Positions 55,908 to 64,000 are shown, counted from the stretch's first letter. The stretch is 64,000 nt of DNA from Bdellovibrionia bacterium (GCA_030424715.1 JAUHWH010000002.1:335080-399079); one strand, 5' to 3'. Notes: a model not told the origin generated them from the letters alone. Program-made: numbers and translations.

Positions 55908-55946
55908 GCGCCAGTGTTGGAATTGGTAGACAAGCCAGCTTGAGGG
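55908..55946 (+). pseudogene. 5'-half tRNA-Leu remnant
   Basis: These 39 bases match the first 39 of the intact tRNA-Leu at 56124 in 36 positions, from the acceptor 5' strand through the D arm to the anticodon loop (cttgaggg), then diverge at once. It cannot form a tRNA. Confidence 0.85.
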
Positions 55947-56123: not shown

Positions 56124-56212
56124 GCGCCGGTGGTGGAATTGGTAGACACGCCAGCTTGAGGGGCTGGTCCTGAGTTCTCGGGGTGAAGGTTCAAGTCCTT
56201 TCCGGCGCACCA
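56124..56212 (+). tRNA. tRNA-Leu (anticodon GAG), with encoded CCA
   Basis: An 89-nt class II tRNA with acceptor gcgccgg/ccggcgc, discriminator A and genomic CCA. The D arm is ggtggaattggtaga-like, the anticodon stem ccagc/gctgg holds loop ttgaggg (anticodon GAG at 34-36), and a variable arm tcctgagttctcgggg and T loop ttcaagt follow. The integrase stop codon starts at the very next base, so the 3' end is the likely attachment site of the adjacent element. Confidence 0.95.
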
Positions 56213-57610
56213 TTAACCTAGCTTTCGGTTCTTATAAGATTCAAGACTTACCACAGACTCAGACAACTGGTTGACCTTCTCAGCCAGCTTGTTTCTGTCT
56301 ATTTGCTTCTCTCCTCCATAGTGAACCTGATTCACCACTTGGTTATGCCCCAAAATTGCACAACGTTCTTTCAATTCTAAACCGGCTTTCTCTGCTTCAG
56401 CATTAAAACCTCGTCTCATATCATGTCTTGTATAAGGGACTTTCACATCATGACGAGTCTTCACTCCCCCTTTATACTTACCATGCTTCGTTCCTCCACT
56501 CTCATCACTGGGAACGTCATACGAACGGGCTTCTACTAAACCAGCAGCCACAAAAAGGCCTCCCCAAGCTCCTCTAATATTATCCACTCTTCTAAAAACA
56601 GTGTTTCGCCTGCTTGATAGACCTCTATCAACCATGGTGAAAATAAAAGAGGCTTCAATGACTTCTTTTTTCATTATTCCCTTCTTATTTTTAATCAAAG
56701 TGTATCCTACCACTCGATGAACCTTCGCCCGTTCAATCAGTGGAATTAATAACTTGATCAAATTGTCAGATAAAGGAACAACTCGCTCTTTAGAAGTCTT
56801 TGGACTCCAGCCCAATTGATCCTTTGTTGGACAGTCCTCTTTATTTTGGACTCTCCAAATCTTTTGCTCAAGATCAATGTCGTCAACTTCTAAATGAAGA
56901 GCCTCGCCCATTCGGGCTCCCGTAGAAAAAAGAAAAAAGGCAAATTCTTTAATGGGAAACAAAAAGCGATGCTTGTAGTCTGCTGCCATTAGCTTCTCTA
57001 CAACATCAGGAGGTGTTGCCACTGTTCTTGCCCGTTTATCAACATCGACCCGAATGGGGTCCACCTCTAAACAAGGATTGGTCATAATCATTTTTCTTTT
57101 TCTTAACCATTTAAACAGTTGCTTCACCGCTTTTAATTTTCCCTTCGCAGTCACTTGGGAAATCTTTTTACACTTAACCAGCATCAATAAATGCTCACGA
57201 TATTTATAAACATGCTCTTCCTTAACTTTATAAACTAAGTCGATCTTCAGAGTTTCTTTGAAAAAAGTAAACTCTGATTTTAATTGCCAACTCATCGTTT
57301 TAAAGTAACTGCGAGAATGCTCGACTTCAATGGAAGCCAAATATCTTGCAATCGCCTCATCAATCGTATTGACCTTATTTGAAGACCTTTCCATTTTCTC
57401 AATCTCTTTAGGAGTGAAAAGACCTTTGGCAAGGTCAGCCGCTTTTAAGGCTGCATTTCTTTCCGCAACGGACTGTTTGTTAGCTGCAAAACAGTAAAAC
57501 CAAACATCACCTGGAAGCTTAAACTTCCAGTGCCACTTAGAACCCCGTTGATAAGTGTAAACCTTCGGACGGTAATTGTACGGTACTTCAATTTGAATTA
57601 ATTCATTCAT
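56213..57610 (-). CDS. int: Tyrosine recombinase/integrase of the tRNA-Leu element
   Basis: A 465-residue phage-type integrase. The catalytic set is Arg233 (STGARMGEAL), a Lys near 273, His396 and Arg399 (RHDMRR), His422 (LGHNQ) and Tyr431 (VHYGG). An N-terminal arm-binding part (residues 20-70) and SAM-like core-binding domain (80-180) precede. Its stop codon directly follows the tRNA CCA, the usual position for tRNA-targeting elements. It overlaps the excisionase-like gene by four bases. Confidence 0.92.
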   Translation of the reverse strand: MNELIQIEVPYNYRPKVYTYQRGSKWHWKFKLPGDVWFYCFAANKQSVAERNAALKAADLAKGLFTPKEIEKMERSSNKVNTIDEAIARYLASIEVEHSRSYFKTMSWQLKSEFTFFKETLKIDLVYKVKEEHVYKYREHLLMLVKCKKISQVTAKGKLKAVKQLFKWLRKRKMIMTNPCLEVDPIRVDVDKRARTVATPPDVVEKLMAADYKHRFLFPIKEFAFFLFSTGARMGEALHLEVDDIDLEQKIWRVQNKEDCPTKDQLGWSPKTSKERVVPLSDNLIKLLIPLIERAKVHRVVGYTLIKNKKGIMKKEVIEASFIFTMVDRGLSSRRNTVFRRVDNIRGAWGGLFVAAGLVEARSYDVPSDESGGTKHGKYKGGVKTRHDVKVPYTRHDMRRGFNAEAEKAGLELKERCAILGHNQVVNQVHYGGEKQIDRNKLAEKVNQLSESVVSLESYKNRKLG

Positions 57611-57873
57611 GATCTTCCTCCATGATCTCGGTAGCCCTGCTTTCTTGAAGATTGCAGAAAACTATCAAGATCGGTTTTTAAGAAGACCAAACCTTCTTTC
57701 GTAAAATCACAAAAGGTTAATTTTCTCGACCTCAGTGCGTGATAGCGAATACTATCCACACTGCACCTACAATAAAATGCCGCTTCTTTTTCGTTAAACA
57801 CATGATGGTTTAACGCAATTAGCTCTATTCCATTTTCAAAGAACCCATCCCTTTTGGGATCAAGCCGTTTCAT
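57607..57873 (-). CDS. Excisionase-like helix-turn-helix protein
   Basis: An 88-residue protein with a MerR/excisionase-type winged HTH: VFNEKEAAFYCRCSVDSIRYHALRSRKL, then FTKEGLVFLKTDLDSFL. Such proteins bend DNA at attachment sites and bias integrase towards excision. Its stop overlaps the int start (ATGA), so the two are made together, which supports a directionality-factor role. It could instead only regulate transcription. Confidence 0.75.
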   Translation of the reverse strand: MKRLDPKRDGFFENGIELIALNHHVFNEKEAAFYCRCSVDSIRYHALRSRKLTFCDFTKEGLVFLKTDLDSFLQSSRKQGYRDHGGRS

Positions 57874-57988
57874 AAAAACAGCTCTCTTATATTTATAGAA
57901 TGGGTGCCCTTTTGAAGCAATAAAATCTCAGTCCATTCAGTCGAATAAATGCAGAAAAAAAGTTCAAAAATGAACCCTAAAACTGCCA

Positions 57989-58348
57989 TCACTTATTCCC
58001 CTCTAAGATATGACTCTGGGGCTTTTCAGAGGACTTTGACGACCTTTTTTTTGACGATTTATCCCGCTTGCCATGAAGCTCAGCCACTCTTGCCACAAGC
58101 TCTTCTGGAGAGTCGGCTGTCTGGAGAAGGTGTTTTATATAACCCCTCTTGTCAAAAAGTCTTGATAACAACTCTTTTTTCTCGCGCTCAAAATACTTCT
58201 CTTCAAAACAACAAACAATTTGGCTGACAAGCTTTGATGGCGATACTTTTAAATAAGAGCTCTCCTCCTTAAGAGCTCTAAAAATTTGATTGATAACCTC
58301 AACGGCTTTTTCATCTAAGGAAATGCGACCTGATTTTAAGGCCTTCAT
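57989..58348 (-). CDS. Small basic protein, possible ribbon-helix-helix type
   Basis: A 119-residue protein with a helical N-terminal half (SLDEKAVEVINQIFRALKE; SPSKLVSQIVCCFEEKYFERE) and a Lys/Ser-rich tail (KRDKSSKKRSSKSSEK). The K-V-S-P-S-K-L-V-S motif resembles the helix-turn-helix part of ribbon-helix-helix accessory proteins of plasmid mobilisation, a weak likeness. It shares one base with the lipoprotein gene. Confidence 0.5.
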   Translation of the reverse strand: MKALKSGRISLDEKAVEVINQIFRALKEESSYLKVSPSKLVSQIVCCFEEKYFEREKKELLSRLFDKRGYIKHLLQTADSPEELVARVAELHGKRDKSSKKRSSKSSEKPQSHILEGNK

Positions 58349-58860
58349 TATCTTTTGGCCTTTCTTTTCTTCGGACGCCCTAGATTAAATTGTGGTGAGC
58401 CTTCAATCTTCCACACCTTGTGACCCTGGATCAAAGTTCTTCCGTCGTCTACCGTATGAGTCTCTACATAATCCTCTCGCACCGAAGGAGACGTCACAAA
58501 AGTATTATGTTTCTCAAAGTTCACATTCTCAAAACTGGTGGATATACCGTGAGACTCTAGGTTAAAGAGAGTTTCTCTTCTGACCTTTCGCTCCTTCTTA
58601 TCCATCACTTGATGAAGAATATATCCTGTCAAACCTCCAACAAGCAGACCAATGCCTGCTCCCTTTAATGTCATCTTCTTATGATCCTGACGAGCCATAC
58701 TGGAAACCGATACCGCACCCAAAGTGGCTCCGGTCCCTGCCCCCAAGAGCGTTGAACGCTCCACACTCGCACACCCAAAACTTCCTAAAACAAATGCACA
58801 CAACATGATTTTTTTAATACAAATAATTTTATACCTCCTAATATACCTACTGACTTTCAT
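58348..58860 (-). CDS. Glycine-zipper lipoprotein of the element
   Basis: A lipoprotein with leader IKKIMLCAFVLGSFGC and then a glycine-zipper segment (LLGAGTGATLGAVS; KGAGIGLLVGGLTGYIL), a pattern that packs helices in membranes and occurs in lysis-, exclusion- and T4SS-related lipoproteins. The C-terminal half is basic. The start is uncertain: the ATG at 58860 lacks a ribosome site, while an AGGAGG (58834-58839) sits six bases before an in-frame ATT at 58827 that would begin an ideal leader; ATG at 58806 would lose the positive residues. Confidence 0.6.
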   Translation of the reverse strand: MKVSRYIRRYKIICIKKIMLCAFVLGSFGCASVERSTLLGAGTGATLGAVSVSSMARQDHKKMTLKGAGIGLLVGGLTGYILHQVMDKKERKVRRETLFNLESHGISTSFENVNFEKHNTFVTSPSVREDYVETHTVDDGRTLIQGHKVWKIEGSPQFNLGRPKKRKAKR

Positions 58861-58994
58861 TACCGAAATAACGCTATGTAAACGAATACAAACAATTCTC
58901 AATACTTAGAACAAAAACGCTGAAAAAAAGCTGCTGACAATGGAACCACTTACGGAACTATCTTAGGCACCGCCGAGCAAAGAACAAAAAAAAC

Positions 58995-59765
58995 TTAAAC
59001 TCTTTTCTTGAATGGAACATTTAATTTTCCACCCATTGAATTTACAAAGGCCAATGAGTCTGTGCTTTGAAACAAGTCTTCCAAACTCAAAGTAAAAATT
59101 TTAGGATCTTCATCCCCTCGCACTTGACGATCCACTTGCAAGACATAATTTAAAACAGCGCGTGAATCAGACAAATAAAAGACAAAATCAACCGTCTCAC
59201 TTTTATAATATTCCCTGAAAAGGGGCGCATAACGAGCCTTCCCCTTGTCTGAAATCTCAAGTTCTATGGCTCCTGAATACACCTCTTCGTCAATACAAAT
59301 TTGAACAAAAGCGTCACTATTAAGACGCTTAATATCTGATAGGTCGTAACTACAAGCTCCAAAAAGGTCCGATTGAATCTCGTTTTCCATTAAATAATGA
59401 CGAACACATTCGATCGTCTGCATTTTTCTTTTAACGTCAATGAGCTCAAGGTCATGAAAGGGCTGGCAAGTTTTAAGCTCCATACGAGGCAACTCAAAAT
59501 TGTAAACAAAGCCCTTCTTCATAGCCTTCTTTGATACAAAATAGAGTGTTTTCGCACGTCCCTTAAAAATGCTTCCGCGCTCTAAGAACCCCTCTCTCAC
59601 AAGAGTTTTAAGCCGTCTGTTCACCACTTGCCTTGTTGCCCCGTTAAACAAGTCGCGAGCAATTTGCGAAGAAAGTGCTCCTTTCGTGGCAAAAAGATAA
59701 CGGCAAATCTTAATATCTCTTGGAGTTAAAGAAAACCGATGCTTTTTTTCTTGCAAGCACTTCAT
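58995..59765 (-). CDS. Replication-relaxation-like winged-helix protein
   Basis: A 256-residue protein with an N-terminal winged helix (SLTPRDIKICRYLFATKGALSSQIARDLF; VNRRLKTLVREGFLER) and a C-terminal domain of alternating strands and helices (SDAFVQICIDEEVYSGAIELEIS), the plan of the replication-relaxation family linked to plasmid replication or mobilisation. The E-L-E pair may belong to a nuclease-like core; that is a guess. Its start overlaps the FtsK-like stop by four bases. Confidence 0.65.
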   Translation of the reverse strand: MKCLQEKKHRFSLTPRDIKICRYLFATKGALSSQIARDLFNGATRQVVNRRLKTLVREGFLERGSIFKGRAKTLYFVSKKAMKKGFVYNFELPRMELKTCQPFHDLELIDVKRKMQTIECVRHYLMENEIQSDLFGACSYDLSDIKRLNSDAFVQICIDEEVYSGAIELEISDKGKARYAPLFREYYKSETVDFVFYLSDSRAVLNYVLQVDRQVRGDEDPKIFTLSLEDLFQSTDSLAFVNSMGGKLNVPFKKRV

Positions 59766-61249
59766 GACTTCACTTCCTGCTCAACCTTTTTGTTTAGGTT
59801 GGAAGTTTTGACCTGCTTGCGAACAATATCAGTGATCAATTTTTGAGCCAGAGGACTTTTGCCATTTTTAAAACGATCCGAAACCACCTTAAACCGCCTT
59901 TTTAGCTCATCAGCCCCCAAGAAAGGTGTTTGCACCTCAATAATATCGACACCACTTCTAAAAATAGCTCGTCCTTCAACTCGTGGAAGCTCACGGGCCA
60001 TTTTATTACCGACAACAAGCGAGGAGCCTTGAATGGATGGAACCTTAAAACAAAGACGCCCCTCCATATTCTCCTGAATATGGGTATCAATAGTGTCCTT
60101 TGTTACTTTCTGAGTTCCAAGCACCATAGAAATACCCGCCACACGAGCAAGCTTCATTATCTTTTCTGTCAATTCTGTGGCTTTCTTGGCGTGTTCCTTC
60201 TCAGTAGCTGACACTCTTGAGCCATAATAAAGAAGGGAACACTCATCAATAACAACAAGGATGGGGTCGCGTTTATGGCTTTCAAAGTTGATTGTCTCGC
60301 AACCTTTTTCTTCTATGACCTTAAAACGTTCAGTCATCTCCGCATGAACTTTTTCAAGAACTGCGGAGGCTTCAGAAATATCGCGCACAATTTTAGCGTT
60401 TGGAAGATCCTTAAAAGGGCGCATAATGATACCATCCTTTAAATCAATGCCAATAAGCTGTAAATTGGGTGTGTTCTCCAAAAGATTGAGCATCATCTGG
60501 CGCAAGAAATAAGACTTCCCCATCCCCGTTGCACCAGCAGTCAGCCAGTGAGGAACAGAGAAAATACTATTCTTAACAAGCCTGCCGTAAGTTTTCCCAA
60601 TGACGAACTCTCCAGGTTGATTGGCTTCACTGGCCACTTCACTGTAGGGAACTTTTTTGGAAAGTGGCTTATCATTTAAAAATAAGTCCACATACTTTGG
60701 CTCTTTTTGCTCCCAAATGGATTCAATTTGAGAGTTCACACTCGCCCTGATGTTACTTCTCTTTTTTTCAAAATCAGCTCTTGGCACTCCTTTTGTGTCA
60801 ATAACCACTTTTTTACGGCTCTGGTTAAGCACTTCTATGTCTTTAACCTTCGGGGAATCCCCCACGCCATTTTTTAGCCCGGCCATTTTTAAAGCCTGAT
60901 CAATGCGTTTGATGGTATCCACATTGGGATAAGCCAAAATAAAAACAGCCACAGCAAAGAGTAGGATTAAAAAGAAGCCAAGCTGATACACCCAGAACAT
61001 CCCAATATTGCGCACAAATTGTTGACTAAAAACATCGGGGAACGTTCCATGCAGATACCACATAGGAGTATTCTTAATGGACCAAACGCTAACAAGCGCA
61101 ACTCCAAATAAAATATTCACCCACGCCAAGCGGCTCAAATGAGGAAGCCTCTTGCCCGCATGGTATATATAGAAAACACTCTTTTTTCCAATAATTAAAA
61201 GCCCTTTGAAAAATTCTACGACAGCAACCTTGTCATTCTTCTTACTCAT
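59762..61249 (-). CDS. FtsK/SpoIIIE-type DNA translocase (conjugative coupling protein candidate)
   Basis: A 495-residue protein with two N-terminal membrane helices (about 42-58 and 87-107) and an FtsK/SpoIIIE motor: Walker A GATGMGKS at 239-246, Walker B LVVIDE at 331-336, and a later TQKVTKDTIDTHIQENMEGRLCFKV block typical of the FtsK group. No gamma domain for KOPS reading is seen. Its place in a secretion-gene operon suggests the coupling role of VirD4. Such FtsK-type coupling proteins are mainly known from Gram-positive elements (TcpA, ConQ). Confidence 0.8.
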   Translation of the reverse strand: MSKKNDKVAVVEFFKGLLIIGKKSVFYIYHAGKRLPHLSRLAWVNILFGVALVSVWSIKNTPMWYLHGTFPDVFSQQFVRNIGMFWVYQLGFFLILLFAVAVFILAYPNVDTIKRIDQALKMAGLKNGVGDSPKVKDIEVLNQSRKKVVIDTKGVPRADFEKKRSNIRASVNSQIESIWEQKEPKYVDLFLNDKPLSKKVPYSEVASEANQPGEFVIGKTYGRLVKNSIFSVPHWLTAGATGMGKSYFLRQMMLNLLENTPNLQLIGIDLKDGIIMRPFKDLPNAKIVRDISEASAVLEKVHAEMTERFKVIEEKGCETINFESHKRDPILVVIDECSLLYYGSRVSATEKEHAKKATELTEKIMKLARVAGISMVLGTQKVTKDTIDTHIQENMEGRLCFKVPSIQGSSLVVGNKMARELPRVEGRAIFRSGVDIIEVQTPFLGADELKRRFKVVSDRFKNGKSPLAQKLITDIVRKQVKTSNLNKKVEQEVKS

Positions 61250-62265
61250 TGTGGACTCACCCCTCCTTTTTTAAATGTTTTTGTTAATGTGATAATCAGC
61301 TCACGGCCTTGATTCAAAGTGACGTAAGCCCCCTCACTTTGAGCCTCCTGTAACTGAAAGGCTCCTTCGGTTTTTGAAAACTCCGAAATACCATTGAGCA
61401 TGGCGTTCTTAATCGTTGGTTTCTTGGTGACAGTTTGATTAAAGCCTTCTCCAAGAGCTTCCCTGTCCTGCAAAACATCACTGGCTCCTGAAACAAAGGC
61501 AAAACCGAGAGTGGCCCCCGCCCTATTGCCAAAAGCACTGTGATAGGAACCAATGAGTCCAGGTGAAAAGTCCTTAGCGTCCATGGCTGAGGCTTCTATC
61601 TTGATCTCATCCCCACTGGGGAGAATGCCGGTGTGGAACTGAATAAAGACCCTTTTGCCGAGACCAGGATAGTTCACCTGACCAAGGAGCACCGTATTTT
61701 TAGGCAACCCCACTCGGTCTTTAAATTTTCCACCAAAAGGCAAAAGAACGCGCACAAACTTATCTGAATGACGAGTGTCAACAGTTGATAATAGCTTCCC
61801 TACGAAGTTGGTTCCAACAGGCAGTGCCCGATCCCCTTGGGAATTGGCTCGCACTAAAACCTGTTTACCCGAATACTTAATTTTAGTGCCTCTTCTACGA
61901 GAACCAGTGGGATCACTCCCTGATAACCTTTTGCCATTCCTACGACCAACGCCCTTAACACCTTCGCCAGTATTTCCATCGTCAGGAAGGCTTGTATCCT
62001 CCCCCTCTTCACTGCCCGAAGCATAAGAGGTGTTATATGAGCTACCATCTTCCTCCGGTGAAGACACAAGACTCATAATAACCAGAACGCCTAAAAAGGT
62101 AGTAGATCCCCATAAAAGGACACCACCCAGATCAATAGACTTCTTTCCAGGATAAATTTTAAAGAATTTACCAGCGAGATACTTTTTAAAGGCAATAAAC
62201 CAATCAACAGGCTTATAGAGAAATTTTCCTACTTTTTTCAAAAATGACTTACATTTATCCATCAC
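61246..62265 (-). CDS. VirB10/TrbI-like T4SS protein
   Basis: A 339-residue protein with one N-terminal membrane helix (about 50-66), a flexible Gly/Ser/Glu-rich linker to about 120, and a C-terminal domain with the VirB10-like pattern LPVGTNFVGKL, VLLGQVNYPGLGKRVFIQF, GILPSGDEIKIEASAMDAKDFSPGLIGSYHS. VirB10 joins inner and outer membranes in type IV secretion. It overlaps both neighbours by four bases. The FtsK-like gene follows. Confidence 0.72.
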   Translation of the reverse strand: MMDKCKSFLKKVGKFLYKPVDWFIAFKKYLAGKFFKIYPGKKSIDLGGVLLWGSTTFLGVLVIMSLVSSPEEDGSSYNTSYASGSEEGEDTSLPDDGNTGEGVKGVGRRNGKRLSGSDPTGSRRRGTKIKYSGKQVLVRANSQGDRALPVGTNFVGKLLSTVDTRHSDKFVRVLLPFGGKFKDRVGLPKNTVLLGQVNYPGLGKRVFIQFHTGILPSGDEIKIEASAMDAKDFSPGLIGSYHSAFGNRAGATLGFAFVSGASDVLQDREALGEGFNQTVTKKPTIKNAMLNGISEFSKTEGAFQLQEAQSEGAYVTLNQGRELIITLTKTFKKGGVSPQ

Positions 62266-62978
62266 TGGTAAGACCTCTTTGAAATAATAATTTTCCCCGT
62301 CTTTTCACCAAAACGAGCATGCAACGTAAAATCAACAGGCTTTACTATTTTCAGAAACAGTCGATAACGATAGTTTTTAAAATTTCCAAAAATGGTGGGA
62401 TCTCGATAGACCACATCAAGGACTTTGAGTTTCTTCCCGCCCCTCGTGACCCACAGTTGATCAGACTTTGGCTTTTCACTCCTTTTTGGAAGAGCAAAGC
62501 TACCATCGACAACATAAACATCGTTAAACCTGTGGTAAAAAATGCTCGAAACAAAAATCTCCACATCCCCAGATTTAAAACTGCGACGTTGAAAAGACTT
62601 TAGTTTTTTAGCTTTCTTCTCTACCTTTTTAGTACGAGGAGGTTTCCAATAAACCTTAACCAAGTCATCATAATTTTGGCAATGACAGACTTTTAAAATA
62701 AAACCAAAGCGCCTCTGTCCACTATAAATAAACAAGTTACTCGAAACTCTTGATAATGGCTGAATGGTGACGTCATTGCCTGTGAACTCCACATTAAAAT
62801 AATTACTGTTCCCGCTAACGATTTTTTTTGGCTCGTCAGCAAACTGTAAAACTGTGGAGCGCCCCATAGCAAGAGTGATCACCTTCATTTGACTGGAGTC
62901 CATTTCAACAGTTCGGACTCTTGCCAGAGATGAAAAGCTAAAAAATATCATGCAAAGACAAAAAAGAAGCCTTTTCAC
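62262..62978 (-). CDS. VirB9/TraK-like T4SS protein
   Basis: A 238-residue exported protein (leader LLFCLCMIFFSFSSLA) with a beta-rich N-terminal domain, VTIQPLSRVSSNLFIYSGQRRFGFILKV, that matches the P-x-x-x-x-x-x-N-L-x-x-x-x-x-x-R pattern of VirB9/TrbG. A basic linker and a second beta domain follow (VYVVDGSFALPKR). VirB9 forms the outer ring with VirB10. A VirB7 lipoprotein partner was not found in the window; the glycine-zipper lipoprotein is a possible stand-in. Confidence 0.65.
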   Translation of the reverse strand: MKRLLFCLCMIFFSFSSLARVRTVEMDSSQMKVITLAMGRSTVLQFADEPKKIVSGNSNYFNVEFTGNDVTIQPLSRVSSNLFIYSGQRRFGFILKVCHCQNYDDLVKVYWKPPRTKKVEKKAKKLKSFQRRSFKSGDVEIFVSSIFYHRFNDVYVVDGSFALPKRSEKPKSDQLWVTRGGKKLKVLDVVYRDPTIFGNFKNYRYRLFLKIVKPVDFTLHARFGEKTGKIIISKRSYQ

Positions 62979-63568
62979 CTCTCAAACTCCGTAATCGAGT
63001 TGATATAAAGCCCCTTAAGGTTCCATTTATTAGGAGTGTCCGCTACGATTTCAAGATGAACTTCAAGAGGCCTCACCGCTTTAACCTTCTTTCCCACAGA
63101 AACCACCCGATCCATCTTAATTTCAACATGATCATCCTTAAGGACGATGCTTTGAATAACCACATTTTGAGCAATCTTATTTTTTTCTACAAAGTCTTTT
63201 GATTTCTCAAACTGACGGGTCATTTTCTTGAGCAAGCCATAGGTCACATAGGGTGAAACATTTCTCACCAAAGCCTCAATGTTGTAAGTCTTCCACTGGT
63301 ATCGTTGCAAAATAAAATTGCGAGCCGATTTTTCCACGTCTGCTTCGACAATTTCTGGACTTTGTCTTTTGCCGATAAAATAAAGACTTTCTGACTCAGT
63401 CAAAGCGACTACAAGTGTGTCCTTATTGAGCAAGTAAATACAGCTTACAACCAGTAAAAAGTTTGAGACCAAAAGAGCCAAGATGACTTTCCTTAAGTTT
63501 CTCATTAGTACATTAATGCGAACCCATTGATTAACGGGCTCTAAACTCTTATTTTCTAGATTAATCAT
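62975..63568 (-). CDS. VirB8/TraE-like T4SS protein
   Basis: A 197-residue protein with a short cytosolic segment, one helix (VILALLVSNFLLVVSCIYLL) and a periplasmic NTF2-like domain (EADVEKSARNFILQRYQWKTYN; VHLEIVADTPNKWNLKGLYI). This is the VirB8/TraE plan, an inner-membrane assembly factor. The ATG at 63568 with GAGG five bases ahead lies inside the end of the VirB6-like gene; the longer open frame to 63691 is less likely. Confidence 0.72.
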   Translation of the reverse strand: MINLENKSLEPVNQWVRINVLMRNLRKVILALLVSNFLLVVSCIYLLNKDTLVVALTESESLYFIGKRQSPEIVEADVEKSARNFILQRYQWKTYNIEALVRNVSPYVTYGLLKKMTRQFEKSKDFVEKNKIAQNVVIQSIVLKDDHVEIKMDRVVSVGKKVKAVRPLEVHLEIVADTPNKWNLKGLYINSITEFER

Positions 63569-64000
63569 TTTTACCTCTTCCCCCTTTGATTGATTGTTTT
63601 CCTGATTGAAAGCCCTGGCTGGAAATATCTCTTGAAACGCTTGCTGGCTTTCTTGCATTACTTGATGAAGCTCGATTGGCCTTAAATTCATTTACAGCAC
63701 GACCGGCTGAACGAACACCTTGGGCTGCCACTGACTTGCCTCGGTCTTTTGCAAACCTTCCGGCCTTCTTAATTTGATTCATAACGATTTTCTGGGAAGC
63801 CAACGCTGGAGCCGCAGCAAGACTGGCTGAGTAAGCTGCAAAATCTCCTGATAAAAAGGCTTTTGTCGCCACTGGAATAAACAGCATACTAGCACCAATA
63901 AAAAGATTGATGACTATCAGTAAAATGGCGTTATAATTATCACCATCAGCAATGGGCGCATGAGTGGTATACTTTAATAGAATGACACCGAGGATACTCC
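63561..64000 (-). CDS. VirB6/TrbL-like T4SS membrane protein, C-terminal part only
   Basis: The frame is open through the window's right edge, so the start is missing. The visible 145 or so residues hold two hydrophobic stretches (ILLIVINLFIGASMLFIPV and an Ala-rich segment) followed by a basic, Ser/Gly-rich tail (SSSNARKPASVSRDISSQG). This layout, several helices then a polar tail, is typical of VirB6/TrbL channel proteins, and the position before VirB8 agrees. Confidence 0.65.
   Translation of the reverse strand, partial: SILGVILLKYTTHAPIADGDNYNAILLIVINLFIGASMLFIPVATKAFLSGDFAAYSASLAAAPALASQKIVMNQIKKAGRFAKDRGKSVAAQGVRSAGRAVNEFKANRASSSNARKPASVSRDISSQGFQSGKQSIKGGRGKND

Follow-up and report, generated by a model that had tools for sequence, protein, structure and literature searches.

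Introduction

Passages of a December 2025 review assign VirD4-family coupling proteins to all Gram-negative type IV secretion systems (T4SSs) and confine TcpA to some of the Gram-positive MPF_FA systems (PMC12857230). The literature searched draws the same line, with coupling proteins of the TcpA/FtsK type described in Gram-positive systems and VirD4 in Gram-negative ones. Here we analysed a 64,000-nucleotide window of DNA from a Bdellovibrionia bacterium (C8:335080-399079 in a 3.13-Mb genome of 18 contigs), reading its operon onward past position 64000, and identified a 28,790-bp element, integrated in this Bdellovibrionota genome, that by gene content, homology and synteny is probably an integrative and conjugative element (ICE) whose VirB channel would be served by a TcpA-type motor together with a MOBC-type relaxase. 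As the review gives VirD4 to all Gram-negative systems, a TcpA-type motor with a Gram-negative channel would be new; no description of the lineage was found in the portions of the open-licence literature searched, and an earlier report may exist elsewhere.

The closest described counterpart of the motor, TcpA of Clostridium perfringens pCW3, likewise has two N-terminal transmembrane (TM) segments followed by an FtsK motor, and is the best profile and fold match. By contrast, passages of the review describe pCW3 as a plasmid of Gram-positive hosts that uses a MOBM relaxase (PMC12857230), whereas the element combines a VirB8/9/10 scaffold with a MOBC-type relaxase in a diderm phylum. MOBC relaxases, such as MobC of CloDF13-like plasmids and pAD1 TraX, resemble the element's candidate in joining a winged helix to a PD-(D/E)XK domain and in having a coupling-protein gene next to them, although the neighbours of the MOBC genes inspected were mostly of the VirD4 type and that of the element's MOBC-like gene is of the TcpA type. 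The likeness to TraX rests on its published description, in a passage that gives an N-terminal winged helix and PD-(D/E)XK (PMC12857230). Streptomyces TraB also has an FtsK-like motor, but in the passages concerned it reportedly needs no other known subunit of a T4SS (PMC12857230) and no relaxase (PMC3158045), whereas the element has a relaxase candidate.

A TcpA-type motor follows the VirB scaffold

The first-pass annotation, made from the window alone, had described a contiguous minus-strand operon with VirB6-, VirB8-, VirB9- and VirB10-like genes, then an FtsK/SpoIIIE motor, and had suggested a hybrid system for conjugation, possibly from a lineage of Bdellovibrionota about which little has been written. 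All of these genes are present and intact, and the named genes of the window lie on the minus strand as open reading frames (ORFs) that mostly overlap:

58995..59765, minus strand: MOBC-type relaxase candidate, 256 aa, N-terminal winged helix plus PD-(D/E)XK
59762..61249, minus strand: coupling protein of the TcpA type (FtsK-like), with motor domain and two TM helices, by profile, fold and tree
61246..62265, minus strand: VirB10, TrbI family (PF03743 2.5e-12, above cut-off)
62262..62978, minus strand: VirB9, CagX family, signal peptide-like N terminus (PF03524 2.2e-5, below cut-off; TIGR02781 1.5e-6)
62975..63691, minus strand: VirB8-like, by one TM segment, position and synteny (TraE 0.009 in one relative, weak)
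63561..64000, minus strand: VirB6-like, 3' part, continuing to C8:399614 (complete at L002:8641-9615)

The motor is closest to pCW3 TcpA by profile and fold, ahead of chromosomal FtsK. It matched PF01580 (8.7e-18), contained the Walker A motif GATGMGKS and the two membrane helices that had been noted at first pass (hydrophobic N-terminal segments 38-56 and 81-113), and had a Walker B motif, ILVVIDE. Searched against the PDB, a profile of 20 relatives of the product at 59762 ranked pCW3 TcpA (1e-57) above Escherichia coli and Pseudomonas FtsK (~1e-33; 1.7e-33), type VII secretion system EccC-type proteins (1e-22 or weaker) and TrwB (0.053, Walker A only), and the VirD4-family models PF02534, PF12696 and PF10412 gave no match in the motor protein. 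The AlphaFold model (mean predicted local distance difference test score, pLDDT, 84.9) had TcpA as its best Foldseek match (1.7e-28). In the motor tree, the T4SS-linked FtsKs of the phylum formed one clade (Shimodaira-Hasegawa-like approximate likelihood ratio test, SH-aLRT, 91) near Gram-positive FtsK/TcpA and apart from DptH and chromosomal FtsK, with long branches that leave the exact neighbour of the clade unsure. A chromosome-partition FtsK was rejected on the basis of the profile ranking, the tree and the two true ftsK genes that the host chromosome carries elsewhere, separate from the motor gene of the element. TraB-like, relaxase-free transfer of double-stranded DNA (dsDNA) was also rejected, as the TraB model scored 35.7 against an 800-bit cut-off and a relaxase candidate is present.

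The gene following the motor had been called replication-relaxation-like, a call that is real (7 of 9 relatives matched Replic_Relax, at best with 7.5e-8) but too modest, as hhalign placed its family with six MOBC-type proteins (probability 99.1, E 1.7e-18), the H, D, ExE and K residues being in register between the two sets. The PD-(D/E)XK residues of the candidate are H104, D151, E168, E170 and K174. By tblastn, the candidate matched a protein encoded by a MOBC-typed Carboxydocella plasmid (E 1e-6), and that protein in turn matched annotated MobC proteins. The MOBC reference was the annotated mobC of an Enterobacter plasmid, mobC being absent from the annotation and long ORFs of the CloDF13 record. 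An AlphaFold2 model (pLDDT 88) retrieved winged helices with Foldseek and, weakly, FokI (6e-3). We regard the winged-helix gene as a candidate MOBC-type relaxase, which would nick DNA.

Beyond position 64000, the operon continued with VirB2, VirB3, VirB4 and VirB5 genes. In transcription order, the transfer block encodes a 128-aa protein, virB2, virB3, virB4 (two genes), virB5-like, virB6, virB8-like, virB9, virB10, the FtsK-like motor, the winged-helix gene, a glycine-zipper protein, a ribbon-helix-helix (RHH)-like protein, xis and int. VirB2 matched PF04956 (2.5e-7) and VirB3 was named by position, while VirB6, with six TM-like segments, had TrbL/VirB6 matches in 4 of 9 family members (best 4.7e-5). 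The outcome that the first-pass annotation had set against its own proposal, a VirD4 gene within a standard T4SS further along and an FtsK of the partition clade, is not what the sequence holds: the motor is TcpA-like, and the gene list and Pfam matches through the distal attachment (att) site contained no VirD4 gene in the complete 28.8-kb element. A Pfam and Walker A scan likewise found no VirB11 ATPase, leaving VirB4 and the FtsK-like protein as the ATPases of the transfer block; passages of the review note that VirB11 is also missing from F-type systems (PMC12857230).

VirB4 is encoded by two genes (L002:10309-12779; C8:400308-402778), with matches to TraC_F_IV (2e-13) and P-loop_TraG (3.5e-34). 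The break falls directly after the Walker A helix, with a restart at an overlapping start codon, in this element and in L037, L038 and L039, which represent four genera; in other relatives, unsplit VirB4 is one 800-aa chain. The Walker B half begins with about ten additional, unaligned residues, and in L125 the split is apparently different, ahead of Walker A. A sequencing error was ruled out by the shared site in four genomes. Because the split lies at an identical site with overlapping stop and start in four genera, it appears to be maintained, and we read the product as a probable two-chain ATPase. With its two Walker motifs encoded by different, overlapping genes, the split VirB4 is relevant to the question of how this ATPase assembles.

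Two motors on homologous channels

The proposed lineage proved widespread in the phylum, with motor relatives in 73 of 369 genomes and 58 of 182 genera (E <= 1e-20), and two short peptide patterns searched over species genomes placed close relatives almost only in Bdellovibrionota-type records. In one contig labelled Candidatus Nomurabacteria (L104), the FtsK was almost the same as that of a Bdellovibrionales contig, which points to a probable mis-binning. Gene order was surveyed in ~100 loci, some of which are the same place entered twice. In untruncated VirB-type loci, the gene after virB10 was of either the TcpA or the VirD4 type, and the two never occurred there together; in L055, a VirD4 gene lies on the opposite strand, past two integrases. 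A non-redundant VirB4 set (n=77) comprised 47 TcpA-type loci, 24 VirD4-type loci and 6 with neither gene within the stretch read. A search that began from VirB4, with no FtsK reference, found the motor within 15 kb in 34 of 47 loci at at least 44% identity; the other 13 were not individually inspected.

In the VirB4 tree, the VirD4-type loci formed one clade (SH-aLRT 100) and the TcpA-type loci two, except for the long-branched L125. We infer that the exchange ran from VirD4 to TcpA; the F-type outgroup left the root of this tree unsettled, and hence the tree itself gives the motor swap no polarity. The TcpA-MOBC pair also stood beside an F-type scaffold (TraF, TraE, TraK, TrbI and TraC relatives), and the F-type-linked motors were nested within the T4SS-linked motor clade of the phylum.

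Both arrangements occur in the same genome. A sister ICE (C8:~25-45 kb) shares the p128-virB2-3-4-5-6-8-9-10 order and the glycine-zipper, MOBC-like, RHH and int genes, but has a VirD4-family coupling protein (PF12696 1.8e-12) and the order VirD4, glycine zipper, MOBC, in contrast to FtsK, MOBC, glycine zipper in the element. The single TraG/TraD-type (PF12696) gene of the genome, at C8:42257, belongs to that other element. Bacillota plasmids and prophages (L179, L180, L182, L183) also have adjacent FtsK and Replic_Relax genes, but their motors are 25-33% identical and no VirB8/9/10 scaffold was seen in the stretches read. As for precedents on Gram-negative plasmids, the three alphaproteobacterial FtsK proteins and the one cyanobacterial protein inspected resembled phosphorothioation-associated (Dnd/Dpt-type) proteins, with no T4SS link, and that of a Bacteroides plasmid looked chromosomal FtsK-like, again with no T4SS link.

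The stated Gram-positive-only range of TcpA, which is a range and not a mechanistic criterion, is thus not upheld, as the type occurs with VirB-like and F-like scaffolds in Bdellovibrionota; the rule given in the review is broken by a lineage in many genomes and on two scaffolds. Homologous channels with either motor, even within one genome, amount to a natural swap experiment, which makes the influence of the coupling protein on DNA strandedness, docking and relaxase choice directly testable.

A Bdellovibrio plasmid offers a further arrangement: pBdHAGR1 of Bdellovibrio sp. HAGR004 (L058, 9602-11235) carries a Replic_Relax/MOBC-like gene (3.5e-8) with, immediately after it, a HerA-like ATPase gene (weak, DUF87 0.0075), which by sequence is possibly a third type of coupling protein. 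This plasmid is recorded as non-mobilizable, yet has VirB4- and VirB10-like genes.

Integration in a split tRNA-Leu gene

The int and xis genes had been placed at tRNA-Leu by the first-pass annotation. Both genes are present, while the intact tRNA proved to lie inside the element and the host gene to be split into halves:

55908..55946, plus strand: 5' half of the broken host tRNA-Leu(gag), 36/39 bases as in the intact tRNA, by ARAGORN on joined flanks
55940-55946: attL core TTGAGGG, within the 5' half
56124..56212, plus strand: complete tRNA-Leu(gag), element-borne replacement, by ARAGORN, flanked by the halves of the split host gene
56213..57610, minus strand: int, tyrosine recombinase (PF00589 1.2e-12; R-HxxR-H-Y kept)
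57607..57873, minus strand: xis-like small helix-turn-helix protein (HTH_17 0.023, below cut-off), overlapping the int start and preceding int in relatives
C8:419809-419864 (L003:9810-9865): 3' half of the host tRNA-Leu and distal att, 28.8 kb from the 5' half

The acceptor stems of the 5' half (GCGCCAG) and the distal half (CTGGCGC) pair perfectly, whereas the intact tRNA pairs with itself (GCGCCGG/CCGGCGC) and its CCGGCGC is not matched by the 5' half. Flanks joined by a script at the shared TTGAGGG were recognised by ARAGORN as tRNA-Leu(gag). Since the stems of the halves pair and the joined flanks are called as a tRNA, the element spans 28,790 bp, lies in the anticodon loop and carries a replacement tRNA; the intact tRNA-Leu as integration target was ruled out by the split halves and its own position inside the element. 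Genome-wide, GCCAGCTTGAGGG was present, with at most one mismatch, only at the intact tRNA-Leu and attL. The host may rely on this element-borne tRNA-Leu(gag). Int retains the catalytic motifs ARMGE, HDMRR, LGHN and VHYGG.

Among relatives, an extra 5' tRNA-Leu piece (residues 1-39) adjoins the intact tRNA in L039 (L039:18284-18538), and an extra 5' tRNA-Arg piece (residues 1-50) does so in L042 (L042:7303-7508). A tmRNA gene adjoins one relative (L101:14822-15221), and tRNA-Arg and tRNA-Glu/Lys adjoin others (L042, L051, L105).

Proposed mechanism and alternatives

The element holds an integrase, att sites, a relaxase candidate, a type IV coupling protein and VirB4-based mating-pair genes, the gene set of an ICE. 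In the mechanism that we propose, Int and Xis would excise the element from the split tRNA-Leu gene, and the MOBC-type relaxase would bind and cut a putative origin of transfer (oriT). The TcpA-type motor, by analogy hexameric and with its two TM helices as an anchor, would then do the job of VirD4 in the sister elements, recruiting the DNA-relaxase complex and pumping it into the VirB2-10 channel, which would be powered by the two-piece VirB4 without VirB11. The tRNA-Leu of the element would meet the host's need for this tRNA as long as the host gene is broken. Channel assembly, DNA transfer and docking of the motor at the place of VirD4 are all predicted from the gene set. It is conceivable, though rather unlikely, that the motor drives dsDNA through the Gram-negative VirB channel while VirD4 elements of the same lineage export single-stranded DNA; for pCW3, others have suggested dsDNA on account of the FtsK-like character of TcpA, as a passage of the review records (PMC12857230).

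Several points weigh against the ICE interpretation. Many of the relatives are contigs of metagenome-assembled genomes; VirB5 and VirB8 are named mainly by position, and the VirB8-like protein, the weakest of the gene names, had no PDB match. MOBC proteins bind direct repeats that lie away from the nic site, and no convincing repeat array for an oriT was found in the three intergenic stretches checked. No empty site was found in relatives, whose flanks did not match, and the second search was without a positive control. In two Bacillus plasmid records, the FtsK/Replic_Relax-type pair lies by phage genes, because of which replication could be the main role of the MOBC-like protein.

These Bacillus pairs, around which the stretch read showed no T4SS genes, together with a VirD4-type element of related scaffold in the same host, would fit an FtsK-like partition or replication factor beside a T4SS that borrows the VirD4 of the second ICE. 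We consider this improbable, as the FtsK-like gene occupies the exact position of VirD4, directly after virB10, where the two never co-occur, and as motor and T4SS have stayed together across deep branches of the VirB4 tree. A remnant that has decayed or become immobile, its genes persisting although the element no longer moves, is in keeping with the two pieces of virB4 and with the failure to observe excision or an empty site in the relatives searched; it is equally improbable, given transfer and recombination ORFs that are open with catalytic motifs kept, and a virB4 split maintained in four genera. A T4SS that exports proteins instead of DNA, to prey or competitors for instance, and in which the motor receives the substrate, would suit a predatory phylum and a cargo that includes a large S74-domain fibre-like protein, but is very improbable, given that int, xis, att sites and a MOBC-type relaxase are linked to it, that the motor is of the FtsK/TcpA DNA-pumping type and that relatives adjoin different tRNA genes.

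Accessory genes and cargo

Two further small genes of the window recur in the block:

57989..58348, minus strand: small RHH-like protein, possible relaxosome accessory or regulator (PF01402 0.18 only)
58348..58902, minus strand: glycine-zipper lipoprotein-like protein (PF13441 2.2e-5, below cut-off)

Upstream of the transfer block lie genes for a histidine kinase, a GNAT protein, an OppA-like solute-binding protein, a sigma-54 response regulator, an XRE regulator and a 1559-aa protein (L003:2432-7111) that is phage-fibre-like with a C-terminal Peptidase_S74 chaperone domain. The OppA-like and kinase genes are at L002:14715-18202 and the regulator at L003:3-926; the first two, often with the sigma-54 regulator, recur beside the transfer block in L037, L038, L039 and L047. 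OppA-like proteins sense peptide pheromones in enterococcal plasmids, of which the solute-binding and kinase set of the element is reminiscent, and the recurrence of solute-binding protein, kinase and regulator near the block suggests that transfer may be under the control of a signal.

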